Source of the DNA: Candidatus Persebacteraceae bacterium Df01 | GTDB taxonomy: Bacteria; Pseudomonadota; Gammaproteobacteria; Tethybacterales; Persebacteraceae | Reading direction: 5' to 3' | Length of the DNA: 64,000 nt | Assembly (NCBI GenBank): GCA_030386295.1 | Contig: JANQAO010000003.1 | Coordinates: 236,114-300,113 of the forward strand | Part shown: positions 23,024 through 39,513 of the stretch, piece after piece | How positions within the stretch are numbered: the stretch's first letter is position 1 | Layout: each line of letters opens with the position of its first letter | Position numbers and translations under genes: made by a program | The notes under the pieces: generated by a model | Database searches by the model: none | Told to the model about the DNA's origin: nothing | Seen by the model: the letters and a program-made list of their open reading frames with translations, nothing else

Positions 23024-23875
23024 ATGAAAATCATGAATAATCCAACCCATCGAAAAAAATACCGCGGACCAGTCAAAGCAGCGATTATGGACTGGAGCGG
23101 CACACTGGTGGATGCTTATGTTGTTGCACCTAGCGTTGTTTTTGTTGAAATTTTTAAAAAATACGGTGTATCCGTTACTATGTCAGAAGTGCGCGGACCA
23201 ATGGGGCTGCGCAAAGACGCACATATTCAAAAATTACTTGAAGATCCGGAAATACGTGCGCGCTGGATGACATCTCATGGAAAACCACCTAATGCCGATG
23301 ACGTAGCGGCAATGTATATTGATTTTATTCCACTGCAATTAAAATGTCTTGCTCAATATGGCACGCTATTACCCGGCGTTGCCGGTGCGGCGAATGTCTT
23401 GCGGCATAATTACAGCATGAAGCTGGGCGCAACAACTGGTTTTACTCGCGCTATGATTGACGTGCTACTAGTGGAAACAGAAAAGCAAGGATTGCATTTA
23501 GACGCCACTGTTGGTGGTGATGAAGTCATCAACGGCTCACGCCCACAACCATTTATGCTATATCGCAATTTAGATTTGATGAATATCTCGCCGATACAGG
23601 CTGTTATGAAAGTGGATGACTCAATTGCTGGGATTGACGAAGGGTTAGCAGCCGGTTGCTGGACAGTCGGGGTATCACGCTACAGCAATTACATGAACAT
23701 TGATTCCGTCGCCGATGCTGAAAAAGTGTCAGCAAAAGAATTAGACTCTCAACACTCACATGCCAAAAAATTGTTACTACAAGCCGGCGCGCACTATGTT
23801 GTGGATAGTGTTGCCGAGCTGCCACAAGTAGTAGAAGATATTAATGTTCGTCTAAAACGCGGCGAACAAGCATAA
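23024..23875 (+). CDS. phnX: Phosphonoacetaldehyde hydrolase
   Basis: HAD-superfamily phosphonatase that cleaves the C-P bond of phosphonoacetaldehyde to acetaldehyde and phosphate. In the 283-residue frame the nucleophile is D23 in MDWSGTLVD, and the Schiff-base lysine is K64 in GPMGLRKDAHIQ, which distinguishes phosphonatases from other HAD enzymes. TTGFTRAMIDVLL, MKVDDSIAGIDEGLAAGCWTVG and AGAHYVVDSVAELP fit family blocks. The usual DWAGT is DWSGT here. The partner aminotransferase phnW is not in the window, so the gene stands alone. No Shine-Dalgarno sequence is visible; an ATG three codons later is possible. Confidence 0.9.
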   Translation: MKIMNNPTHRKKYRGPVKAAIMDWSGTLVDAYVVAPSVVFVEIFKKYGVSVTMSEVRGPMGLRKDAHIQKLLEDPEIRARWMTSHGKPPNADDVAAMYIDFIPLQLKCLAQYGTLLPGVAGAANVLRHNYSMKLGATTGFTRAMIDVLLVETEKQGLHLDATVGGDEVINGSRPQPFMLYRNLDLMNISPIQAVMKVDDSIAGIDEGLAAGCWTVGVSRYSNYMNIDSVADAEKVSAKELDSQHSHAKKLLLQAGAHYVVDSVAELPQVVEDINVRLKRGEQA

Positions 23876-23962: not shown

Positions 23963-25804
23963 TTACTCACCAATTTCCATCAATATTTCGTCGGGTGTAA
24001 CGGCATCACCTTTTTGCACCAAAATCGCAGTTACTTGACCACTGACAGCCGCCTGAATTTCGTTTTCCATCTTCATCGCTTCCATAATCAGCAAAGGTGT
24101 GCCAACTTTCACGGCATCCCCTAATTTAACCAGCAATTCCAGTACTGTTCCCGGCATAGCCGTTGCCACATGCCCTGGCGCACTGGGACGAGGCCGACCG
24201 CCGGCACGCGTCACTGGAGTTACTGACTCATTAGCAGTAGCGTGAATTTCTTCCAACGTTTCTAACATGATTTCTGTCGGCACACCATCCAAAGTCATAT
24301 AAAATGGACGCTCGCGAGAACCCTTATGGCCGGCACCAGTAACGCGAATGTGGTAGGTTTCACCGTGTACGGTTAAATTAAATTCGCTGGGCGCATTCGC
24401 AGGTTCAGGTTCCTTTTTTGTTTCCGGGTGCGGCAATAATGCTTCTGGTACAAGTGCATTCGCCGCGCGCTCTTGCAAAAACGTTTTGGCCAATTCGGGA
24501 AACATCGCATAAGTCAACACGTCTTCATCGCTTTTAGCCACTTGACCAATATCGCTGCGTAGTCGCTCCAGCTCGCCGTTCTCAAGCAAATCAGCCGGAC
24601 GGCAAGTAATCGCCGTATCATCATCGCCCACCGCTTTAGCATATAGTTCGGCATTCACTTCGCCCGGAATGCGCCCGTACTGCCCCAGTAAATAATTCTT
24701 AACTTCATTGGAAACCATTTTGTAGCGCTCGCCCAACACCACATTAAGCACTGCTTGTGCGCCAACAATTTGCGATGATGGAGTGACCAGTGGCGGGTAC
24801 CCTAAATCATGTCGTACTCGCGGAATTTCTTCTAATACCTCGTCTATTTTATCTAACGCGTTTTGTTCTCTCAGTTGATTTGTCAAATTGGAAATCATAC
24901 CGCCTGGCACGTGATGTTTTAGCACCCGCGAATCCACTCCGGTAAAGGGACTTTCAAATTGCCAGTATTTTCCGCGCACACGGCGAAAATACAAGGCAAT
25001 ATCATCCAATAAGTTTGCGTCTACTCCGTGCGTAAAATTAGCATCCTCAAGAGCAGTGGCAATGGACTCGGTTGCAGGATGGCTGGCACCTTCGGCAAAT
25101 GAGGAAATAACGGTGTCCACGATACTAGCACCAGCGTTGACAGCGGCAAGCAGACTGGCGGCTGCCAATCCAGACGTAGCGTGTGCATGCACGTGTACTG
25201 GCAACGCAGTGCGAGCCTTGATGGCGGTGACCAGCGCAGCGGCTGCGGTAGGTGTCATAATACCCGCCATGTCTTTAATCGCAATGCTGTCACAGCCAGC
25301 ATTAGTAAAATCATCGGCAAGCTTAGCCAATACATCAATAGAATGCAGCGGACTAGTCGTATAAGAAATTGTTCCCTGCGCGTGTTTTTCTACCTTTTTT
25401 ACCGCATCAATGGCAGCACGCATATTGCGAAAATCATTAAGCGCGTCAAATACGCGAAATACGTCCATACCGTTGGCAGCGGCACGCTCAACAAAGCCAG
25501 CGACGACATCATCAGCATAGTGCCGGTATCCTAGCAAATTTTGTCCGCGCAATAACATTTGCAATTGCGTATTAGGTAACGCCCGACGTAACTTGCGCAA
25601 TCGCACCCACGGATCTTCACGTAAAAAGCGGATACAGGCATCAAAAGTGGCACCACCCCACACTTCCAATGACCAAAACCCGGACTTGTCCAAGCGATTG
25701 CATATTGGCAACATGTCTTCGGTGCGCATGCGTGTGGCGAGCAACGATTGATGACCATCACGAAGCACTAATTCTGTAATACCAATCTTTCTTTTTTGTT
25801 TCAT
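23963..25804 (-). CDS. pycB: Pyruvate carboxylase subunit B (oxaloacetate decarboxylase alpha-type)
   Basis: A 613-residue carboxyltransferase and biotin carrier. The TIM-barrel part opens with ELVLRDGHQSLLATRM and has LRGQNLLGYRHYADDVV and the region of the carbamylated lysine, SIAIKDMAGIMTP. A conserved carboxylase domain follows, then a C-terminal biotinyl domain with the acceptor lysine in EAMKMENE at about residue 578. Oxaloacetate decarboxylase would need oadB and oadG, which are absent. The biotin carboxylase gene lies 12 nt upstream on the same strand, so a two-subunit pyruvate carboxylase making oxaloacetate is the better reading. AGAGGGG precedes the ATG. Confidence 0.88.
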   Translation of the reverse strand: MKQKRKIGITELVLRDGHQSLLATRMRTEDMLPICNRLDKSGFWSLEVWGGATFDACIRFLREDPWVRLRKLRRALPNTQLQMLLRGQNLLGYRHYADDVVAGFVERAAANGMDVFRVFDALNDFRNMRAAIDAVKKVEKHAQGTISYTTSPLHSIDVLAKLADDFTNAGCDSIAIKDMAGIMTPTAAAALVTAIKARTALPVHVHAHATSGLAAASLLAAVNAGASIVDTVISSFAEGASHPATESIATALEDANFTHGVDANLLDDIALYFRRVRGKYWQFESPFTGVDSRVLKHHVPGGMISNLTNQLREQNALDKIDEVLEEIPRVRHDLGYPPLVTPSSQIVGAQAVLNVVLGERYKMVSNEVKNYLLGQYGRIPGEVNAELYAKAVGDDDTAITCRPADLLENGELERLRSDIGQVAKSDEDVLTYAMFPELAKTFLQERAANALVPEALLPHPETKKEPEPANAPSEFNLTVHGETYHIRVTGAGHKGSRERPFYMTLDGVPTEIMLETLEEIHATANESVTPVTRAGGRPRPSAPGHVATAMPGTVLELLVKLGDAVKVGTPLLIMEAMKMENEIQAAVSGQVTAILVQKGDAVTPDEILMEIGE

Positions 25805-25816
25805 AAGCCCCTCTCT

Positions 25817-27235
25817 TCACATACCAGCGTGACAAACCAGTGCTGCCGCTATCGCCAGCGCCTCGTCTTCAGTGCGCCGCAACGGAGCAACATTGGCCAA
25901 TTCTGGATGCGCTGCAACAAATCCAGTATCAAAATCACCGCGGCGAAAATCATTGTGTTTAAGTATTTGCTGATAATATGGAATCGTCGTTTTGATACCA
26001 GTCATCACGATGTCAGCAAGCGCCCGCTGACCACGAGCAACAAGTGCTTCCCACGACAATGCCCAAACGGTAAGCTTAGCGCACATGGAATCGTAATAGG
26101 GAGGAATTACGTACCCGGTATATATAGCACCGTCGGTACGCACACCCGGGCCGCCTGGTGCATAATAGCGAGTAATGCGGCCAAAACTGGGGATGAAATC
26201 GTTACGTGGATCTTCGGCGTTAATGCGAAATTGCATGGCATAGCCGCGGTGATGAATGTCTTTCTGCCGCACCGATAACGGTTCACCAGCAGCAACGCGA
26301 ATTTGTTCTTGTACGATATCTAAACCGGTAATTTGTTCAGTAACCGTGTGTTCCACCTGCAAGCGAGTATTCATTTCCATAAAATAAAAACGCCTGTCTT
26401 CGTCCAGTAAAAACTCTACAGTACCGGCGTTTTGATAATCGGCAGAAAGTGCAAGTTGAATTGCATAAGAACAAACTTCCTCTCGCTCCTTTTCGGTAAG
26501 CTGAGGCGATGGCGCAATTTCTATCAATTTTTGATTGCGCCGTTGAATGGAACAGTCACGCTCAAACAAGTGAACAATGTTACCGCTACCGTCGGCAATA
26601 ATTTGCACTTCAATATGACGCGGATTGACAACACATTTTTCCATAAACACGTCAGCACGACCAAACGCTTTTCTAGCTTCAGATGAAGCACGATCAAATG
26701 AATGTCGGACTTCATCACTATTATCACAACGGCGAATCCCTCTCCCACCACCACCGCCGACTGCTTTGAGCATGACTGGATAGCCAATCCGCTCGGCTAG
26801 CTTGACGGCTTCATTTACGTTGACCAATGCGCCTTTGCTGCCAGGAACAACTGGTACTCCGGCTGTCTCAGCCAAAGCTCGAGCAGCAACCTTATCACCC
26901 ATACGTTCAATAGACTGCGCTGAGGGACCAACAAATTTTATGCCGTGACGTGCACAATAACGCGGCAACAACGGACTCTCAGATAAAAAACCGTATCCCG
27001 GATGCACAGCATCGCAACCCAATGCGGCAGCAAGAGAAGTGATTTTGTCAGCGTTCAAATAGCCGTTAAGTGGGTGCGCACTGATACGATACGCTTCATC
27101 CGCTTTTTTAACGTGCAAAGCATTTTTGTCTGCATCGGAATAAATCGCCATGGAACGAATACCCATTTCAGCACACGCACGCACTACTCGTACAGCAATT
27201 TCCCCTCGGTTAGCGATGAGCATTTTTCTAAACAT
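25817..27235 (-). CDS. pycA: Pyruvate carboxylase subunit A (biotin carboxylase)
   Basis: ATP-grasp biotin carboxylase of 472 residues that carboxylates the biotin on PycB. It begins MFRKMLIANRGEIAVRVVRA and contains HPGYGFLSES, the glycine-rich ATP lid MLKAVGGGGGRGIRR, FMEKCVVNPRHIEVQI and the active-site FYFMEMNTRLQVEHTVTE. FRINAEDP is also present. It resembles AccC, but there is no accB next to it and pycB follows directly, so a pyruvate carboxylase role is favoured. The C-terminus is somewhat longer than that of AccC, as in PycA proteins. Confidence 0.88.
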   Translation of the reverse strand: MFRKMLIANRGEIAVRVVRACAEMGIRSMAIYSDADKNALHVKKADEAYRISAHPLNGYLNADKITSLAAALGCDAVHPGYGFLSESPLLPRYCARHGIKFVGPSAQSIERMGDKVAARALAETAGVPVVPGSKGALVNVNEAVKLAERIGYPVMLKAVGGGGGRGIRRCDNSDEVRHSFDRASSEARKAFGRADVFMEKCVVNPRHIEVQIIADGSGNIVHLFERDCSIQRRNQKLIEIAPSPQLTEKEREEVCSYAIQLALSADYQNAGTVEFLLDEDRRFYFMEMNTRLQVEHTVTEQITGLDIVQEQIRVAAGEPLSVRQKDIHHRGYAMQFRINAEDPRNDFIPSFGRITRYYAPGGPGVRTDGAIYTGYVIPPYYDSMCAKLTVWALSWEALVARGQRALADIVMTGIKTTIPYYQQILKHNDFRRGDFDTGFVAAHPELANVAPLRRTEDEALAIAAALVCHAGM

Positions 27236-27422: not shown

Positions 27423-28037
27423 TTATTCTCCTGCGCCTCGGCGAGACTCATTGCTGGCGGGAACATAACAATTAGCGGCTAATGATTCTAGTGCGCACCA
27501 TTCTTTTTCATCTTGCTCACAGCCATAATTCGCAACGGACACTGGCACACCGGTTGGCTTTTCTTTGGAAAATGTCACATCTGCGACGGCAGCACTAATT
27601 TGATCTTGTTCAGACAAATACAGTTGTCCACGCCCAACAACCAAGGTTGTACCTGACCAGCGCAATGCTGTCCAATTTCTACTGGTAGAGAAAAAAAACG
27701 CTAGCCATAATGGCTGCGCGAGATTATTAATAATCAGTCCGTCACATACCGGTTGCCTATCACAAAGAAAAATGCCAGCCATAAGCGGACATAAAGGACT
27801 TGCACAAAATTCGGATTCATTAATGGCTCTTTCCATTTCCGTCGTTGATGCAAACATGTCACGATTTTGCAGCACTGTCATCAGCGATACCGGTAGCTGC
27901 CGTGCTGCTAGCCAGCGGGCGGCAACGCCAGTTTCTTCAGCTATTCCCCACGGTAGCCCAGCACCACGTGCTGCCTTACGCGCTAGTGTTTCAATTTCAT
28001 TAAGCGAATAAATCACTATGCCGCTGACCACACCCAA
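27423..28037 (-). CDS. DUF3726 family protein of unknown function
   Basis: A roughly 200-residue soluble protein. The N-terminal YSLNEIETLARKAARGAG, then LPWGIAEETGVAARWLAARQ, is the hallmark of DUF3726, for which I know no activity. The rest has an LPVSL-type strand region and SPLCPLMAGIFLCD with paired cysteines. It is the last gene of a coupled four-gene unit. The ATG at 28037 overlaps the preceding gene by 22 nt; a GTG at 28016, which shares one base with that gene's TAG stop, is an equally good start and puts the DUF3726 motif right at the N-terminus. No transmembrane segment is seen. Confidence 0.75.
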   Translation of the reverse strand: MGVVSGIVIYSLNEIETLARKAARGAGLPWGIAEETGVAARWLAARQLPVSLMTVLQNRDMFASTTEMERAINESEFCASPLCPLMAGIFLCDRQPVCDGLIINNLAQPLWLAFFFSTSRNWTALRWSGTTLVVGRGQLYLSEQDQISAAVADVTFSKEKPTGVPVSVANYGCEQDEKEWCALESLAANCYVPASNESRRGAGE

Positions 28038-29674
28038 CCATCAGACGGCAGTGAGTTTATTTCGTGCGGATATGGCGCGCCCGCGTACATATTTACGCGC
28101 AACCAGCGGTCTGAACGCGGGCTAAAGCACGTCGCACCAAAAAACGACAACTTACAGCGCAATAAATCCAACGGCCGCATAGTCGCACTAATTAAATTGT
28201 CTTGAATTTCACCGTAAGGAAAGCGTGCGACAATTTGTTCTCTCCGCGCTACATGACGATGCTGCGGATACGCAAGTAAAAAACTTGCTAATGTTGAACT
28301 ACCATCCGTTACTTTCAAATCGCACCAAAATGACTGCATGTCACGCATGATTGCCAGCGGTAGTTCTTGTCCCGCACCCGGTTCAGAAAATCGCTCACCC
28401 AGCCGAGGTTCCATTTTTTCTTCTGACGTGTACCAAAAACGAGCACTTTCATCTTTGTCGGAAAAATCACATCGCCATATCCAATCGTACTGCAGCTGCA
28501 GTCGCGCCAGCGTTTCTGTCACCGTCGTTTTTCCGTTAATAACAAACGTCTGTGCCTCATCATAGGCCATATCACCGGTCAAATCATCCACCAGCTCGCC
28601 ATGCGGCTCCAATATCAATGACACTAGCATTTCGCGCCCTTCCGTTTGCATATGATCATCCGCCCAACGATACAGTAAATCCCACGGTCGTTGGCAATGC
28701 AGCAGACCTTTCATTAATGGCTGATCAATACGATGTAAATCCGCCGCCAAAGGAGTAATTTTGTGCTGCCCATCATCTACTGTCCATAACGCAACATCAC
28801 GACGAGCTCGTTTTAATACATCAACAAAACACGCACGCGTTTGTGGCGTTGCCACCGATATCGCACGCACGCGTGCCAGCGCCGTTTCTCTGGCGAGAAT
28901 CCAGTGATGCAACAATACCGGATGTGAAATTAAAAATGGCGCCATGCCCAACCCAGTTGAATTTCCAATTCCAAGCTGTCGCCGAGCTGCTATTGACAAA
29001 CGCACAGCCTGCGGTGAACGCGCCAGCGCCATATGCTCCACCAAATCAACGGGGAAAGCACGAAACAGCCACACGGCCAACATTTCGACACGAAACGGCG
29101 CCGCAAATTCAATACGCTCCGCAACTCGCGCACGGTCAGCAATACCGAATTTACCATTACCATAAACAGCAGTTGTGCGCATTAAATAGCCCACTGCTTG
29201 CAGGTGTTTTTCGTCCGGTTGTTGCCCAGCAGCAAGTGCATCCACCACGCTCTCAAACAACCGTACGCTACGATTGGCACGCGATAGCACAAATTGTCGA
29301 CAATCGTTGCGCCCCGCTTCTTGCAGTGGCACTTGCGTCCTCAATCGTTGCAAGTCATCCTTTGTTGGCACGCCGTCAAAAAGCGTAAAGGTAGCGTCCC
29401 ATGCTTCGGCGATAACGCGATCGGATCGTTGCTGCGCAGATAAATTATGGCTGAATACCACCAGCGAATATACATGCTGCAGTCCTCTCGCTTCATAAAC
29501 CGCATGACCAACTCCAGCGGCATTAATTTCCCACACAGGACGCGAAAAATGCCAGTTATTAATATCCCGCAATAAAGCACGCATAAAACTCAGTCGCGTC
29601 TGACTAAGTGCCCCCAGCACCTGAAGACACATAATCTCTTGCGGTGGTCGCAGACTTAATGTGTTCTCTGTCAC
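28016..29674 (-). CDS. Conserved-looking protein of unknown function, 552 residues
   Basis: I do not recognise this family. It is a long, soluble, Trp- and Arg-rich protein with no signal peptide, membrane segment or standard nucleotide-binding motif. Notable stretches are WEINAAGVGHAVYEA near the N-terminus, YLMRTTAVYGNGKFGIADRA in the second quarter, GNSTGLGMAPFLISHP mid-protein and RFPYGEIQDNLISATMRPLD near the end. The glycine-rich TGLGM and GNGKFG segments look conserved and may form a ligand site. It starts with GTG overlapping the dipeptidase stop (GTGA) and overlaps the DUF3726 gene at its end. That packing implies the products work together, perhaps in uptake or breakdown of an amino-acid derivative. 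Confidence 0.7.
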   Translation of the reverse strand: MTENTLSLRPPQEIMCLQVLGALSQTRLSFMRALLRDINNWHFSRPVWEINAAGVGHAVYEARGLQHVYSLVVFSHNLSAQQRSDRVIAEAWDATFTLFDGVPTKDDLQRLRTQVPLQEAGRNDCRQFVLSRANRSVRLFESVVDALAAGQQPDEKHLQAVGYLMRTTAVYGNGKFGIADRARVAERIEFAAPFRVEMLAVWLFRAFPVDLVEHMALARSPQAVRLSIAARRQLGIGNSTGLGMAPFLISHPVLLHHWILARETALARVRAISVATPQTRACFVDVLKRARRDVALWTVDDGQHKITPLAADLHRIDQPLMKGLLHCQRPWDLLYRWADDHMQTEGREMLVSLILEPHGELVDDLTGDMAYDEAQTFVINGKTTVTETLARLQLQYDWIWRCDFSDKDESARFWYTSEEKMEPRLGERFSEPGAGQELPLAIMRDMQSFWCDLKVTDGSSTLASFLLAYPQHRHVARREQIVARFPYGEIQDNLISATMRPLDLLRCKLSFFGATCFSPRSDRWLRVNMYAGAPYPHEINSLPSDGWVWSAA

Positions 29675-30648
29675 ACGTTATTTGCCGCAACAAAACTACG
29701 CACAAAAAATCGCTGCCAGTTCTCGCCTAACACGTTATCTACTTCTTGTTGATTAAATCCAACTTGCCGCAATCCGTCGTCCAAATTACCAAAGTCGGCG
29801 GCAGATTCAAACCACGGTGGCTGTGGTGGAAAAACGCCACCGCTTACATCCATGTCCTTGCTCCAACGCCCCGTACGCATCCACGCCACCACTAAATCAG
29901 GCTGACCACGACACAAATCAGAGCCAATTCCAATATTGTCGGCACCCATAATTTCGGCAGTACGAGCTACCATTTCACAAAAACTCTTCAATGTACATTG
30001 GCTGCCGTCTTTAAGGTGGTGTGGATACAAACTCAAGCCCAACATACCGCCTGATTTTGCCAATTCCAGCAATATCGTATCTGATTTGCTACGTGCCGCC
30101 AAACGCCAAAAGGAAGGATTGGCGTGAGTCACAGCAATCGGACGGGAAGATAATTCAATTGCTTCCAAAGTGGAGCGTTCACCTGAATGCGACATATCTA
30201 TCACCATGCCTAACCGATTCATTTCGGAAATAACCTGCCGCCCCATGCGCGTAATTCCGCTGTCGTGTGGTTCATAACAGCCACCGGCAAGCAATGATTG
30301 ATTGTTATATGTTAATTGCATAAAACATGCGCCCAAACTATGGCATATTTCCACTAGACGAATATCGTCTTCAATGGGTGCGCAATTTTGAAAACCGAAA
30401 AAAATCGCCGTGCGACCGCTCTCCTGTGCCGCACGCACATCGTCGGCACAGCGGCCATGAAAAATCAAATCTCTATGATGCGCAAACCAATCATTCCAGT
30501 GCGTAATATTAGCAACGGTTTCACGAAAATTTTCGTGATAACAAATAGTTACATGCACTGCGTCTAAACCGCCGGCACGCATTTCTTCAAAACGCGCGCG
30601 GCTCCAATTGCAATATTGCAGGCAATCTATACGTGTTGGCTTGTTCAC
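29671..30648 (-). CDS. Peptidase M19-like (membrane dipeptidase) family protein
   Basis: About 325 residues of the renal-dipeptidase-like amidohydrolase fold. Visible family blocks are MRAGGLDAVHVTICYHENFR, IFFGFQNCAPIEDDIRLV, FMQLTYNNQSLLAGGCYE, the histidine regions VIDMSHSGERSTLEAIE and PIAVTHANP, and the GADNIGIGSDL strand. The usual N-terminal metal motif HxD is replaced by RIDCLQYCNWS, so metal binding may differ and the substrate may not be a dipeptide. I place the start at GTG 30648, 4 nt after the aldehyde dehydrogenase stop; the frame is open farther upstream but only inside that gene. It overlaps the next gene by GTGA. Confidence 0.8.
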   Translation of the reverse strand: MNKPTRIDCLQYCNWSRARFEEMRAGGLDAVHVTICYHENFRETVANITHWNDWFAHHRDLIFHGRCADDVRAAQESGRTAIFFGFQNCAPIEDDIRLVEICHSLGACFMQLTYNNQSLLAGGCYEPHDSGITRMGRQVISEMNRLGMVIDMSHSGERSTLEAIELSSRPIAVTHANPSFWRLAARSKSDTILLELAKSGGMLGLSLYPHHLKDGSQCTLKSFCEMVARTAEIMGADNIGIGSDLCRGQPDLVVAWMRTGRWSKDMDVSGGVFPPQPPWFESAADFGNLDDGLRQVGFNQQEVDNVLGENWQRFFVRSFVAANNV

Positions 30649-30652
30649 GCCT

Positions 30653-32098
30653 TTAATCCGGCAGGCCGGCGTATGTATAAGCAGTTTTAACTGCGGTATA
30701 AAACTCGGCAGCAATGCGTCCCTGTTCACGCGCACCGTAAGATGATTTTTTCCTACCGCCAAAAGGCACATGATAGTCGGTCCCTGCCGTAGGCAAATTG
30801 ACCGTCACACAACCCGTTTTGCTGTGCTGACGAAAATGGGTAGCACGAGATAATGAACGAGTAATAATACCGGCAATTAACCCATATTCAGTATCATTCG
30901 CTGCTGCCAACGCCTCTTCATAAGAATCGACGGCAATGACGCAAGCGATAGGCGCAAACATTTCCTCGCGGTTAATGCGCATAAGGTTATTGCTACCGGT
31001 AAACAGTGCCGGCGACAGATAATACCCATCTGTTTCCAACGTCAACTGTTCACCACCGAAAATATGCTGCGCACCTTCCTTCTGCGCTAACTGCAGATAA
31101 TCCAAATTTGCCAGCAACTGTGTCTCGCTCACCGCCGGGCCAATTTGAGTGTCCTTCTCTAAAGCATGTCCAACTTTAAGATTGGTGGCGGCAATGGCCA
31201 TCTTTTCCACAAATTCATCGTGCACCTTGCTGTGAACAATCAAACGCGACGAGGCAGTGCATTTTTGTCCAGTACCTCCATAGGCACCAGCGGTAGCACA
31301 GCTAACAGCAATATTCATATCAGCATCATCCATTACTACTAGCGGATTTTTGGAGCCCATTTCCATTTGTAATTTGGTTAGATTGCGTGCTGCATCTTGA
31401 GCGATAATCTTCCCTGTTTCCAACGATCCAGTAAACGAAATAGCGTCTATATCTGGATGCTGGGCTAGCGCGCGCCCAATGACAGTGCCGCCACCCATTG
31501 TTAAATTAAAAACACCAAGCGGGATATCCTGTTTGGCAATAATCGCAGCAAACTCAACAGCGACGGCAGGCGTTAGGTTTGCTGGTTTCCACACTACGGC
31601 ATTACCAAAAGCCAGTGCTGGCGCAATTTTCCAGCAAGCCGTAGCTAGTGGAAAATTCCACGGGGAGATAACGGCAACAATTCCTACTGGCTCACGGCGC
31701 ACGTCAATTTCAATGTTGGGGCGCACCGAATTAGCGTTCTCACCTAATTGCCGCAACACTTCGGCGGCATAATAAGAAAAAAACTGTCCGGCACGAAATA
31801 CTTCGCCAACACCCTCGTTACGCGGCTTACCCTCCTCACGTGATAACAGCTCGCCCAATTCAGCGGCACGACTCATCAATTCCACACCAATGGCATTGAG
31901 TACGGCCTGTCGTTTTTCTAGCCCTGTCTCTGCCCACTGCGGCTGTGCTTTCCGGGCTGCGGCAACCGCTTGACATAATTGCTCGGTATTTGCCTGCGCA
32001 TAATGCCCAATAATATCGGAGGTGTCGGACGGATTGCGGTTTTCAATCGTCTCCGTCGAATTCAACCACTCACCAGCAATGTAATTTTGACCTTTCAT
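30653..32098 (-). CDS. NAD(P)-dependent aldehyde dehydrogenase
   Basis: A 481-residue aldehyde dehydrogenase. Active-site elements are ISPWNFP (N148), the general base E246 in LQMEMGSKNPLVV, and C280 in GGTGQKCTASSRL; FTGSLETGK is the cofactor loop. The sequence resembles 2,5-dioxovalerate (alpha-ketoglutaric semialdehyde) dehydrogenases of sugar-acid or hydroxyproline pathways, but the substrate cannot be fixed from sequence alone. The frame continues 38 codons upstream; the ATG at 32098 has a strong GAGGAG, so it is preferred. It heads a four-gene unit with the dipeptidase, the unknown protein and DUF3726, and diverges from the GT22-like gene. Confidence 0.88.
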   Translation of the reverse strand: MKGQNYIAGEWLNSTETIENRNPSDTSDIIGHYAQANTEQLCQAVAAARKAQPQWAETGLEKRQAVLNAIGVELMSRAAELGELLSREEGKPRNEGVGEVFRAGQFFSYYAAEVLRQLGENANSVRPNIEIDVRREPVGIVAVISPWNFPLATACWKIAPALAFGNAVVWKPANLTPAVAVEFAAIIAKQDIPLGVFNLTMGGGTVIGRALAQHPDIDAISFTGSLETGKIIAQDAARNLTKLQMEMGSKNPLVVMDDADMNIAVSCATAGAYGGTGQKCTASSRLIVHSKVHDEFVEKMAIAATNLKVGHALEKDTQIGPAVSETQLLANLDYLQLAQKEGAQHIFGGEQLTLETDGYYLSPALFTGSNNLMRINREEMFAPIACVIAVDSYEEALAAANDTEYGLIAGIITRSLSRATHFRQHSKTGCVTVNLPTAGTDYHVPFGGRKKSSYGAREQGRIAAEFYTAVKTAYTYAGLPD

Positions 32099-32441: not shown

Positions 32442-34043
32442 GTGAAAAATATTAATTCTTGGGGTCAATCTATCGGAAATATAATGTCAGCGTTGCGCCT
32501 ACCAAACCATAATCAAGCGGCAGACGAACCCTTGTGGCGCAGTTTTTGGCTGTGTCTTATTGCCGCTTTTGGATTACGCCTGCTTTTCATTAGTAACGAC
32601 GATGTTTATCGCGCAGATGAGGTATTTCAATATTTGGAGCAAGCACATCGCCTAGTTTTTGGCTCTGGTCATGTTATGTGGGAGCAAAGGCTTGGGATGC
32701 GGACACCACTTATCTACCTTCCCGCCGCTGCTATTCTTCAATTATTAAAAGCGACAGGTTTTGAGCATCCTGACTTTTATATCCCAGTAATCAAAATTTT
32801 TAATATCTTATGCTCCCTCATATTGCCAGCAGGAATGTATATTATTTCCCGTCGTTTGTACAGCGAACAGACAGCACGGTTGGCATTGTTTACGGGCATT
32901 ATTTGGCATGAATTTTTGTACTTTTCCACACGCACTCTGCCCGAACTGTACGCCACTTATCTGCTTTTTGCAGCATTGATATTTTTCTCGAGCAATGCAA
33001 ATTGGCTGCGGGCTGCAACAACGGGACTGCTAATCGGGTTAGCGGTCGCCGTACGTGTTCCCTATGCACCACCCGCCGCCTTGTTAGCCTTTATCTTACT
33101 ACTGTCTTTTTCAACCGCCAGAGCTCAACGCAACTTTATTATCGGCGGTATCGTAGCTTTATTGCTTTGGGGAGCAGTGGATGCCATTTTTCTCGGTAGT
33201 CCATGGTTATCCATGATCAATTATTTTCGCGTTTACGTTTTAGCACCGAACGAAGTAGCACAAGTCAGATTACAGATAGACGGTGATCCGTTTCTTTATC
33301 TAAAACACTTGACAAAAAATAGTTTCTTGCTATTCCCTCTTGTTTTTGCTATTGGTTGCTTTTTTTGGCGAAGACACAAAATTTTGATAGCACTTATTAT
33401 CGCTGTAGTGTTGCCTCATGTACATCAAATTTCTCTTACAGAAAGTTACATTTTTTTAGCGTCACCTTTTTTTCTAATACTGCTAGCTGATATAGCCTCC
33501 AAAAAACGATTAAGGGTGATTGTTATCAGTAGCGTTTTTTTAATATCAGCAATTTTCATTATCGGCATGCCACATATTTCCAATGGTCTTCTGTTTAAAA
33601 AATCGCCCTTTATAGAAACAAACCGCCGCCTTTCGCGTCAGCCGGAAAATGATGTTCGCTCCGTCTATTGGACAAGATTAGGAAATTTCAACTACAACAT
33701 GTTAGCGCCGGGAGGATATTATTATTTCCACCATAAAGCTCCTGTCTTTTTTGAAATTTATTCCCAACATCAAAAATTATTCCAAGCAGCTGAAATGTCA
33801 TTACAACAAGCTTTTAGTCATGTGATTTTAGATAGTTATGCTGATATATCGGGGTTTCATCTTATCAGCTCTTATCGCGGAATATATATATATCGTAATA
33901 ATGACCCGCAACAAGTAACTCCACCTAATGACTATATTTACGATTATTTTAGCCCTCATTGGTATCCGGCTGAGAAAAAAATAATAGAACTTGGTATCAT
34001 TCCACAGCCGCCGCTTACTCCCTTCGTGGCGGAAGAAAAATAA
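32442..34043 (+). CDS. GT22-like polytopic mannosyltransferase
   Basis: A 533-residue membrane glycosyltransferase with about nine or ten hydrophobic helices and a soluble C-terminal part. After the first helix comes DDVYRADEVFQYLEQAHRLV, like the catalytic loop of the ALG9/PIG-B (GT22) family of polyprenyl-phosphate-sugar mannosyltransferases; the acidic pair DE would be catalytic. RVPYAPPAALLAF and WGAVDAIFLGSPWLSMINYF also fit that family. It would act at the membrane on a lipid-linked or protein acceptor that I cannot name. The GTG start has GCAGGAAA upstream; an in-frame ATG at 32484 is an alternative. It is monocistronic and convergent with glycerate kinase. Confidence 0.72.
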   Translation: MKNINSWGQSIGNIMSALRLPNHNQAADEPLWRSFWLCLIAAFGLRLLFISNDDVYRADEVFQYLEQAHRLVFGSGHVMWEQRLGMRTPLIYLPAAAILQLLKATGFEHPDFYIPVIKIFNILCSLILPAGMYIISRRLYSEQTARLALFTGIIWHEFLYFSTRTLPELYATYLLFAALIFFSSNANWLRAATTGLLIGLAVAVRVPYAPPAALLAFILLLSFSTARAQRNFIIGGIVALLLWGAVDAIFLGSPWLSMINYFRVYVLAPNEVAQVRLQIDGDPFLYLKHLTKNSFLLFPLVFAIGCFFWRRHKILIALIIAVVLPHVHQISLTESYIFLASPFFLILLADIASKKRLRVIVISSVFLISAIFIIGMPHISNGLLFKKSPFIETNRRLSRQPENDVRSVYWTRLGNFNYNMLAPGGYYYFHHKAPVFFEIYSQHQKLFQAAEMSLQQAFSHVILDSYADISGFHLISSYRGIYIYRNNDPQQVTPPNDYIYDYFSPHWYPAEKKIIELGIIPQPPLTPFVAEEK

Positions 34044-36324: not shown

Positions 36325-36362
36325 TATTCATCGCTATTGTACGCGTCAAAAAGCTTTACATG

Positions 36363-36368
36363 TATAAT
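36363..36368 (+). promoter_or_regulatory. Putative -10 element of the TRAP operon
   Basis: TATAAT about 70 nt before the dctP ATG; TTGTAC at 36337-36342 is 20 nt upstream, too far for a good -35. The leader contains AGAGGAG as ribosome site. It lies in the short gap shared with the divergent protease gene. Confidence 0.35.
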
Positions 36369-36438
36369 AAATTGCAACTTAAAAAGCGGAAAAATATCGC
36401 CTAATTTTGTTTATTCAATTTCTTACAGAGGAGAATCC

Positions 36439-37545
36439 ATGCAACGCAGAAAATTTATTACCGCCGGTTTAGTAACGGGAAGTGCCGCATTGGCAGCAGC
36501 ATGCGGCAAGAAAGAAGAAGAAAAAGAACAATCTCCTGCGCCGGCAGTACGCAAAAAATATTCATGGCGAATGGCGACAACATGGCCTAAAGATTTCCCA
36601 GGGTTAGGCATTGGTGCTAATAAATTAGCAAAATATATTACTGATATGTCAGATGGCGAGTTGGAAGTCACCGTATATGGTGCCGGCGAAATTGTGCCGG
36701 CTTTTGAGTCTTTTGATGCCGTCTCAAAAGGCACCGTCGAAATGGGACACGGAGCGGCATATTATTGGAAAGGCAAATCACCAGCAACGCAATTTTTTGC
36801 CGCTGTACCTTTTGGTCTCACCGCTCAAGAAATGAATGCTTGGATTTACTATGGTGGTGGCCAAGAATTGTGGGATGAGCTTTATGCTTCCTTTAATTTG
36901 AAACCTTTTTTGGCCGGTAATACCGGTGTACAAATGGGGGGCTGGTTCAACCGCGAAATTAATTCCTTGGATGATATGAAAGGTCTCAAAATGCGGATGC
37001 CTGGCCTCGGCGGAGAAGTCATTGGCGCTCTCGGTGCCACCCCGAAGGCATTGCCCGGAGGAGAGATATTTACCTCTCTACAATCAGGAGCAATTGATGC
37101 CACCGAATGGGTGGGACCGTACAATGATATGGCATTTGGTTTGTACAAAGCAGCCAAATATTATTATTACCCAGGTTGGCATGAGCCCGGCACAGCACTA
37201 GAAACTTTTGTTAACAAGCAAGCTTATGATGCACTACCGAAACACTTACAGCATGTGGTTGCAACAGCGGCGCAAGCAGCCAACATGGACATGCTAAGTG
37301 AATTCGTTGCCCGAAACGGATCTGCTTTAGATACCTTGATTTCAGAACATGGCGTGATACTCAAGCGATTTCCCGATGAAGTAATGAAAGCGCTCAAAAC
37401 AACGAGCGAAGAAGTCGTGAACAGTGTTGCGGAGAAAGATACCGCAAGTCAGAAAGTCTATTCTGCTTTTACCGACTTTCGTAAAAAAGTAGCGGGCTGG
37501 ACGGATTTGTCCGAAACGCCATATTCTCAAGCACGCAATTTGTAA
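36439..37545 (+). CDS. TRAP transporter substrate-binding protein (DctP/TakP type)
   Basis: A periplasmic solute receptor of 368 residues. The ATG at 36439 has a strong AGAGGAG, so an earlier in-frame ATG at 36337 is rejected. The N-terminus MQRRKFITAGLVTGSAALAA looks like a twin-arginine signal, with a Cys at 22 that could be lipidated. Mature blocks YSWRMATTWPKDFPGLG, GAGEIVPAFESFDAVSKG, YYWKGKSPATQFFAAVPFGL, IDATEWVGPYND and YYYPGWHEPG resemble TakP, which binds pyruvate and other 2-oxo acids with sodium. The ligand is inferred. dctQ and dctM follow. Confidence 0.9.
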   Translation: MQRRKFITAGLVTGSAALAAACGKKEEEKEQSPAPAVRKKYSWRMATTWPKDFPGLGIGANKLAKYITDMSDGELEVTVYGAGEIVPAFESFDAVSKGTVEMGHGAAYYWKGKSPATQFFAAVPFGLTAQEMNAWIYYGGGQELWDELYASFNLKPFLAGNTGVQMGGWFNREINSLDDMKGLKMRMPGLGGEVIGALGATPKALPGGEIFTSLQSGAIDATEWVGPYNDMAFGLYKAAKYYYYPGWHEPGTALETFVNKQAYDALPKHLQHVVATAAQAANMDMLSEFVARNGSALDTLISEHGVILKRFPDEVMKALKTTSEEVVNSVAEKDTASQKVYSAFTDFRKKVAGWTDLSETPYSQARNL

Positions 37546-37559
37546 AAAAATGCTATTTA

Positions 37560-37588
37560 CCACACGGCACTTATTTAATGCCGTGTGG
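37560..37588 (+). other. Intercistronic hairpin between dctP and dctQ
   Basis: CCACACGGCA (37560-37569) pairs perfectly with TGCCGTGTGG (37579-37588) around a 9-nt loop. Only TTA follows instead of a long T run, so it is a weak or partial terminator, or a 3' stabiliser of the dctP mRNA. It would favour more binding protein than permease. Confidence 0.75.
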
Positions 37589-37611
37589 TTATTGACAGTT
37601 ATACTTGTTTC

Positions 37612-38139
37612 ATGCGTATCTTATTAAATCGCTTTGCTGGTGCTGCAGATGCTTTTAATGAATACCTTGGTCGCGCATTATCATATTTTTTGCCTGTTAT
37701 GGTGACGATAACATTAGTCATTATTATTTGCGCCACCGTGTTTCGTATTGGCTGGGTATGGCTACAAGAAACAGTTACCTATATGCATGCTATATTGTTC
37801 ACTCTTGCTGCTGCTTATACGTTACGGCATGATGAACATGTGCGCATGGATGTTTTTTATATTGGGTTATCAAAAAAAAATAAGGCGTGGGTTAATTTAT
37901 GTGGGGTATTATTTATGTTGACACCCACTTGTATTGTCACTATCTTCTATGCAGTACCCTATGTGCGTGATTCGTGGTCGGTGTTTGAGCATTCAATGGA
38001 AGGAGATGGATTACCTGCAGTATTTTTACTCAAAACTTGCATTCCGATAATGGCCGCCCTACTGTTGCTACAAGGAGCTGCTATAGCAGCCAAAGCGTTA
38101 TTGATTATTTTTCCGCCCACAATAGCAAATACGGATTAA
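37612..38139 (+). CDS. TRAP transporter small permease (DctQ)
   Basis: A 175-residue membrane protein with four predicted helices, the DctQ pattern. The second helix ends in RIGWVWLQETVTYMHAILFT, and AYTLRHDEHVRMDVFYIGLS contains the family's conserved RxDEHVRxDxF loop. The long ORF begins earlier, but the ATG at 37612 lies past the intercistronic hairpin and fits the family's length. It pairs with the DctM subunit encoded 6 nt downstream. TRAP systems are driven by sodium or proton gradients rather than ATP. Confidence 0.88.
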   Translation: MRILLNRFAGAADAFNEYLGRALSYFLPVMVTITLVIIICATVFRIGWVWLQETVTYMHAILFTLAAAYTLRHDEHVRMDVFYIGLSKKNKAWVNLCGVLFMLTPTCIVTIFYAVPYVRDSWSVFEHSMEGDGLPAVFLLKTCIPIMAALLLLQGAAIAAKALLIIFPPTIANTD

Positions 38140-38145
38140 AAACAC

Positions 38146-39513
38146 ATGGAACTGTATATTGCACTGCTATTAGCGGTGGTAGGTGTGTGCCTGTTCAGCG
38201 GTTTTCCGGTCGCTTTTGCATTGGCCGGTGGTGCACTTATGGTTGCCGGCATAGGTCATTTGTTGGGCGATTTTGACACTTCTTATTTAGGAGCAACCCC
38301 ATCCCGACTGTACGGCATCATGACCAATGAAACGCTGATTGCCGTACCGTTATTTGTATTTATGGGATTGCTGCTAGAGCGCGGAAAAATTTCAGAGGGA
38401 CTACTAATAGCTATGGGACGGCTATTTGGCAAAATGCGTGGTGGGTTAGCAATCTCGGTCTGCCTAGTAGGCGCTATTTTGGCAGCTTCTACCGGCATTG
38501 TTGGAGCGACGGTGGTAACTATGGGGTTGATTTCTTTGCCGGTAATGTTACGTCATCATTATCATCCGGCACTGGCTTGTGGAGTTATCACCGCCTCCGG
38601 CACCTTAGGACAGATTATTCCGCCATCTATCGTGCTGGTAATTTTAGGTGACGTCATCAGTAATGCCAATCAAAAAGCACAACTGTCTATGGGTAATTTT
38701 TCTCCAGATACTGTGTCTGTTGGAGACTTGTTTTTTGGTGCTCTACTACCTGGACTGTTTTTGGTTGTTATTTATATTGCCTATATTATCGCCATATCAC
38801 TGATAAAACCAGACTGGACTCCGGCAGTGCAAAAAGAAGATCCAGCAACAACTACTACTAGCGTGTGGCAAGCACTGGTATCACCAATATTACTGATTTT
38901 TGCCGTACTCGGTTCCATCCTCGCCGGCATTGCCACGCCAACTGAGGCGGCAGCGGTCGGTGCTGGCGGTGCTATGTTACTAGCTTTTTTCAAAAAAAGC
39001 ATGACGCCCGAGTTATGGCGCGACGCGATGACACAGACAACACGCATTACTTGCATGGTATTTGTCATTCTTATTGGTGCCAGCATTTTTTCTTTGGTAT
39101 TTCGCGGTTTTGGCGGCGACGACGTCGTTACTGAAGCACTAAAATCATTGCCCGGCGGTGTGATAACGGCTTTTTTCACGGTTATGTTGTTGATGTTTGT
39201 TTTAGGTTTTTTTCTGGATTTTTTAGAAATTATTTTTGTGGTCGTGCCGATTGTCGCGCCAGTACTGATTCAATTGGGCATGGATCCAATCTGGCTAGGA
39301 GTGATGATTGCAGTCAATTTGCAAACATCATTTCTTACCCCACCATTTGGCTTTGCTCTGTTTTATTTACGCGGCGTAGTACCCGAAAGTGTTTCCACGG
39401 GAACAATTTATCGCGGCGCAATACCTTTTGTTGCACTACAAATTTTAGTATTATTAGCACTATGGTTTTTCCCCGCCGCTGCCACTTGGCTACCACACAA
39501 AATATATGGCTAA
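38146..39513 (+). CDS. TRAP transporter large permease (DctM)
   Basis: A 455-residue, about twelve-helix membrane protein carrying out transport. LFSGFPVAFALAGGALMVAGIG opens it, followed by GAILAASTGIVGATVVTMGL (first hairpin), GTLGQIIPPSIVLVILGD with the conserved IPPS, GIATPTEAAAVGAGGAMLLA and a late NLQTSFLTPPFGFALFYLRG. These are standard DctM signatures. The stretch ANQKAQ near residue 175 suggests the longer subgroup that pairs with TakP-like receptors. It ends the operon; an imperfect hairpin follows. Confidence 0.92.
   Translation: MELYIALLLAVVGVCLFSGFPVAFALAGGALMVAGIGHLLGDFDTSYLGATPSRLYGIMTNETLIAVPLFVFMGLLLERGKISEGLLIAMGRLFGKMRGGLAISVCLVGAILAASTGIVGATVVTMGLISLPVMLRHHYHPALACGVITASGTLGQIIPPSIVLVILGDVISNANQKAQLSMGNFSPDTVSVGDLFFGALLPGLFLVVIYIAYIIAISLIKPDWTPAVQKEDPATTTTSVWQALVSPILLIFAVLGSILAGIATPTEAAAVGAGGAMLLAFFKKSMTPELWRDAMTQTTRITCMVFVILIGASIFSLVFRGFGGDDVVTEALKSLPGGVITAFFTVMLLMFVLGFFLDFLEIIFVVVPIVAPVLIQLGMDPIWLGVMIAVNLQTSFLTPPFGFALFYLRGVVPESVSTGTIYRGAIPFVALQILVLLALWFFPAAATWLPHKIYG

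Follow-up and report, generated by a model that had tools for sequence, protein, structure and literature searches.

The 64,000-nt stretch of DNA analysed here, which we call the window (contig JANQAO010000003.1, positions 236,114 to 300,113, from Candidatus Persebacteraceae bacterium Df01), carries on its minus strand four tightly coupled genes that encode an aldehyde dehydrogenase (ALDH), an M19-like amidohydrolase, a 552-residue protein (U552) and a DUF3726 protein. All four open reading frames (ORFs) were confirmed, together with the close couplings between them that had been reported in a preliminary description of the window. The first gene, ALDH (30653..32098, 481 aa, Pfam Aldedh), starts at ATG 32098 behind a GAGGAG Shine-Dalgarno sequence, in agreement with the ribosome-binding site proposed earlier for this start. 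The ALDH stop codon ends at 30653 and, after a 4-nt gap, the amidohydrolase gene (29671..30648, 325 aa, 2i5g type, Pfam Peptidase_M19) most likely begins at GTG 30648; a longer ORF from ATG 30771 was rejected as purely mechanical, the relatives beginning at the short form. The amidohydrolase gene shares the four letters GTGA (29671-29674) with the gene of U552 (28016..29674, 552 aa), a protein that belongs to no Pfam family, has no recognised fold and is rich in invariant Arg, Asn, Glu and Trp residues. The last gene (27423..28016, about 197 aa) encodes a Pfam DUF3726 protein with a conserved C-terminal SRxxGAG tail. Its start is likely GTG 28016, which gives a 1-nt overlap with U552 and which we prefer because the homologues begin with 'MxxSLNE'; the alternative start, TTG 28037, gives a 22-nt overlap. 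A scan for promoters and terminators returned nothing beyond what shuffled sequences returned.

Conservation and neighbourhoods of the four genes

U552 is present in 6 of 185 nearby genomes, 15 of 369 sampled genomes of the class and 29 of 398 genomes of the phylum, and 168 plasmid records carry it, mostly from Sinorhizobium and Phaeobacter; among the viral contigs searched, no relatives were found. DUF3726 exceeds its cut-off in 14 of the 369 class genomes, and all 14 also have U552 (hypergeometric p = 2e-24, phylogeny ignored). We examined 44 U552 loci in detail, including the window, although not all of them are independent. A DUF3726-type sequence adjoins U552 in every one of them: in the window, in 42 loci by ORF search, and in Mesorhizobium sp. 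131-2-1, where U552 and DUF3726 are fused into one ORF. At one locus (L092) the ORF search took the wrong frame and the DUF3726 assignment comes from a tblastn match, and at three divergent loci the assignment rests on profile comparison. An M19 gene lies near U552 in 40 of the 44 loci (it is missing from the stretch at L010, L054, L087 and L095), and an ALDH of the window type, 58-68% identical to that of the window, in 24 loci with the window included. The operon recurs in Rhodobacterales and Hyphomicrobiales as well as in Vibrio-like and other genomes, and its carriers include many bacteria of sea and soil. These results support the view that ALDH, the M19-like hydrolase, U552 and DUF3726 form a single functional unit that has been conserved. 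The shared pathway suggested in the preliminary description has thus withstood comparison, the U552 and DUF3726 genes not being usually separated from those of the dehydrogenase and the hydrolase.

In its common fuller form, the operon comprises a usually divergent LysR regulator, ALDH, M19, a BCCT transporter, U552 and DUF3726, followed by Ldh_2 or accompanied by RidA. A BCCT transporter at least 49% identical to that of Ruegeria TM1040 is found near 12 of the 44 loci, TM1040 counted, and a glycine-betaine ABC transporter follows the operon in Aminobacter. In the Vibrio-like/f185 operons that were read (L083 and L084), a RidA gene stands in place of Ldh_2. Some genomes have a pair of U552 loci that have diverged and whose neighbours differ (L086/L087 in G669, L088/L089 in G440 and L093/L094 in G535), and more than one substrate is therefore suggested. 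On a conjugative plasmid of Pseudomonas sp. MPC6 (L117), the neighbours of the unit are a Rieske oxygenase, two genes of the mandelate-racemase family and a flavin adenine dinucleotide (FAD)/2Fe-2S dehydrogenase set, an arrangement that looks like a mobile betaine-catabolism island.

Sequence features of the four proteins

The DUF3726 protein of the window matches its family model (PF12525) with 53.1 bits against a gathering cut-off of 22.1, and none of the papers searched mentions this family. A profile built from 31 DUF3726 sequences matched a profile of eight Ldh_2 sequences from the operon with 88.7% probability (E 2.6e-6), against 0.1% in the control comparisons, and four DUF3726 members match Pfam Ldh_2 (PF02615) over residues 3-135, three of them above its cut-off. 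Since the SHG and GTNP motifs of Ldh_2 are lost in the DUF3726 alignment and the SRxxGAG tail is new, DUF3726 looks, from these alignments, like an eroded Ldh_2-family protein or subunit, a relationship that is new here. The best solved relative of the operon's full-length Ldh_2 in the PDB is 1wtj, a Δ1-piperideine-2-carboxylate reductase, an enzyme whose substrate is a reduced picolinate skeleton. DUF3726 aligns with the N-terminal half of this reductase family, a full-length Ldh_2 member of which is often encoded next to it, but lacks the two motifs and adds the tail. According to two papers (PMC6775277, PMC8070496), enzymes of the DpkA type also serve to make N-methyl amino acids. A close Ldh_2 (E<1e-40) is encoded in 14 of the 15 class-sample genomes that have U552 versus 1 of 20 controls (p = 9e-8, phylogeny ignored). 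The window genome has its Ldh_2 at C2:131587-132564, on a different contig from the operon and 66% identical to the Ldh_2 of the Aminobacter operon.

Profiles of U552 found only noise, and no useful relative, in Pfam and the PDB, and showed no relation to DUF3726 or to Ldh_2. Across 39 U552 sequences reaching down to 28% identity, many Arg, Trp, Glu and Asn residues and a single His (H251) are kept, and no recognised cofactor motif was found in this alignment. The AlphaFold models, for U552 (built with four sequences) and for DUF3726, had predicted local distance difference test scores of 44 and 43, respectively, too poor to use. The two members to which the preliminary description assigned no known activity therefore differ in outcome: this stands for U552, which has no recognisable relative, but not for DUF3726, which appears to derive from a reductase family.

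The M19-like protein matches Peptidase_M19 with 241 bits, and its closest solved relative is 2i5g, annotated as an amidohydrolase, which we take to be PA5396 (pepD). The absence of the HxD metal motif, which is LxY in the window protein and was reported previously for that protein alone, extends to the whole family: among 40 homologues compared, the His is Leu in all 40, and the Asp is Tyr in 37 and Cys or Met in the other 3. The Glu metal ligand is Gln in all 40. All 40 keep two His ligands and one Asp ligand, as in the membrane dipeptidases of family M19. With the HxD residues and the Glu ligand substituted family-wide, the sequences make a binuclear zinc dipeptidase unlikely, and one metal may remain. 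The family-wide loss of these three ligands is new here.

ALDH scores 508 bits with Pfam Aldedh (PF00171), above the cut-off, and keeps the EMGSKN and GQKC active-site motifs with the catalytic Glu and Cys. Its resemblance to 2,5-dioxovalerate dehydrogenases, put forward in the preliminary description, holds in so far as these and the alpha-ketoglutarate-semialdehyde dehydrogenases are the nearest named models, but the scores fall far short of both cut-offs (497.7 bits against 750 for NF052305, and 476 bits against 770 for the NCBIfam alpha-ketoglutarate-semialdehyde dehydrogenase model).

Candidate substrate and pathway

We consider it reasonably probable that the four genes constitute the core of an operon devoted to breaking down an N-methylated ring betaine, with homarine (N-methylpicolinate), whose published operon is reportedly a six-gene set, homABCDER, as the likeliest substrate. 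This reading is based on the betaine transporters, on the relationship of Ldh_2 to Δ1-piperideine-2-carboxylate reductase and on the linkage to N-methylglutamate dehydrogenase (Mgd) in three Rhodobacterales relatives, where Mgd is known by synteny. These relatives are Ruegeria TM1040, where the operon has the locus tags TM1040_RS02320-02345, Phaeobacter inhibens M619 and Aliiroseovarius crassostreae, and in each of them the operon has soxBDAG-like genes and an AraC-type regulator right next to it. In a tree of alpha subunits, the three operon-linked tetramers of Rhodobacterales group with Mgd-type tetramers (support 100/99) and apart from the serine-lyase-linked sarcosine oxidase; the reference Mgd tetramers were identified by synteny, not by assay, through mgsABC-like genes in Rhizobium and dmmABC/GlxA in Paracoccus yeei. 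The tmaR-mgdABCD synteny of R. pomeroyi has been described (PMC13390433), and the same paper, with reference to Ferrer-Gonzalez et al. 2026 (Nat Microbiol 11:1531), gives Mgd a part in homarine catabolism. The operon is probably a match, still a putative one, to the homarine operon published in 2026. The published pathway is linked to Mgd and belongs to environmental Proteobacteria, and the present operon is likewise linked to Mgd in relatives, but the window copy differs in having neither a BCCT gene nor an adjacent LysR gene and its genome in having no tetramer that groups with Mgd. With five structural genes and a LysR gene, the operon of the relatives would also have the size of homABCDER.

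From these comparisons, we infer a substrate, a ring-opening protein and an order of reactions as follows. Relatives would take up the substrate by their BCCT or glycine-betaine ABC transporters, and the organism of the window by another carrier. U552, held with the DUF3726 pseudo-reductase subunit, would attack the ring or help to reduce and open it, and the M19-like hydrolase would act on a cyclic or N-acyl intermediate. The Ldh_2 imine reductase, encoded on contig C2 in the window genome, would handle a Δ1-piperideine-2-carboxylate-like species, with the RidA protein standing instead of it in some relatives. ALDH would then oxidise the semialdehyde formed, and the product, an N-methylated amino dicarboxylate such as N-methylglutamate or a relative, would be demethylated by a sarcosine-oxidase-type tetramer, which in marine Rhodobacterales would be Mgd. 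A more tentative proposal, which we put forward with considerable doubt, is that U552 and the Ldh_2-derived DUF3726 pseudoenzyme make up an enzyme complex of a new class, which performs the ring-opening step of homarine turnover by attacking an N-methylpyridinium ring, although no oxygenase, flavin or metal motif can be recognised in it.

Several observations weigh against homarine as the substrate. The window genome (1.53 Mb, 98% complete) was found to contain no BCCT transporter, and no LysR gene stands beside its operon. It has two sarcosine-oxidase (Sox)-type tetramers, one from C4:96075 to the contig end and the other on C2 (L102:8252-13130), and neither groups with Mgd in the alpha-subunit tree: one is of the sarcosine-oxidase type, and the other, on a long branch, groups with an Acinetobacter tetramer located near glnT. 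The C4 tetramer was considered as a candidate Mgd and rejected because of its position with sarcosine oxidase in the tree. Among relatives, none of the five tested genomes of the Vibrio-like and f185 groups has a close Ldh_2. The divergent forms of Sinorhizobium meliloti and Variovorax, whose U552 is about 29% identical, have different neighbours, with the order U552-DUF-M19, an IclR regulator and other transporters. Lastly, dmdA, Rieske or HpbD-like genes lie beside the operons of some relatives, and other betaines are therefore possible.

The main rival, which we regard as unlikely though of some weight, is that the substrate is a different cyclic betaine with an N-methyl group, for instance proline betaine, hydroxyproline betaine or an N-methylpipecolate, processed by the same logic of transport, ring attack, ALDH and demethylation. 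HpbD-like mandelate-racemase-family genes, the FAD/2Fe-2S dehydrogenase set and Rieske oxygenases near some copies would suit such a substrate, as would the resemblance of ALDH to alpha-ketoglutarate-semialdehyde dehydrogenases, the activity of DpkA-type Ldh_2 enzymes on the five-membered proline analogue as well, and the several genomes whose two U552 copies suggest different substrates. However, these HpbD-like, Rieske and dehydrogenase neighbours occur at few loci only, the conserved core is without a demethylase, and the Mgd/AraC linkage and the co-occurrence with Ldh_2 suit a picolinate skeleton better.

It is improbable that the unit serves as a general accessory in the demethylation of glycine betaine, dimethylglycine or sarcosine, comparable to pepD (PA5396) beside dgcAB. 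This alternative draws on 2i5g as the closest solved relative of the M19-like protein, on the BCCT and glycine-betaine ABC transporters linked to the operon, and on the arrangement in Vibrio natriegens and P. aeruginosa, where pepD and a hypothetical gene precede dgcAB (PMC12093977). The M19-like hydrolase is what the operon shares with this cluster of Pseudomonas and Vibrio, but the cluster has DgcAB and fixAB, and U552, DUF3726 and an ALDH of the operon type are not named in the pepD_hp_dgcAB_fixAB set; moreover, a DgcA-like gene is near just 1 of the 44 loci, and dimethylglycine breakdown needs no semialdehyde dehydrogenase.

The preliminary description had proposed a cyclic or modified amino acid as the substrate, such as a hydroxyproline- or pyroglutamate-like osmolyte. 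The general idea agrees with the presence of betaine-type transporters, with Mgd as a neighbour and with the relationship to Δ1-piperideine-2-carboxylate reductase, but the two named examples are not supported, and a pathway of hydroxyproline or pyroglutamate type now has very little probability. It is favoured by the similarity of ALDH to 2,5-dioxovalerate dehydrogenases, but that score is far under the equivalog cut-off, the neighbourhoods showed no conserved partner of the oxoprolinase, proline racemase or hydroxyproline epimerase kind, and the transporter types and the Mgd link favour N-methyl betaines, among which homarine fits better. Chance adjacency of unrelated genes, for which nothing speaks beyond the fact that small operons are common, is refuted by the conservation of the unit in many families of two classes, the few-base overlaps and the gene fusion.

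The operon in the window genome

In the window, a divergent Alg9-like membrane protein (Glyco_transf_22, 32442-34043) occupies the place that the LysR regulator has in relatives. Directly downstream of the operon, after a gap of ~190 bp, lies a two-gene pyruvate carboxylase (23963-27235; PRK07178-type subunit A and PRK09282-type subunit B), and a HAD-family hydrolase (23024-23875, Pfam HAD_2) that resembles phosphonoacetaldehyde hydrolase by eye is also present. A complete TRAP transporter (DctP, DctQ and DctM, 36337-39513) is encoded ~4 kb from the operon and, by its position only, is a possible candidate for the uptake route. The window copy may be a trimmed variant of the operon with another transporter. 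Elsewhere in the genome, a GMC oxidoreductase gene lies beside the divergent C2 tetramer, and several further GcvT-type proteins are encoded; together with the two Sox-type tetramers, these proteins make the 1.53-Mb genome heavily equipped for the oxidation of N-methyl amino acids.

Marine plankton is rich in homarine and related betaines, and the way in which bacteria open the ring decides the fate of this carbon and nitrogen. The operon would provide a testable marker of homarine-type capacity, here in a 1.5-Mb genome rich in genes for N-methyl amino acid oxidation. In addition, the apparent kinship of DUF3726 with Ldh_2 and the fusion of U552 with DUF3726 offer a concrete hypothesis for a family that was previously without structure or function.

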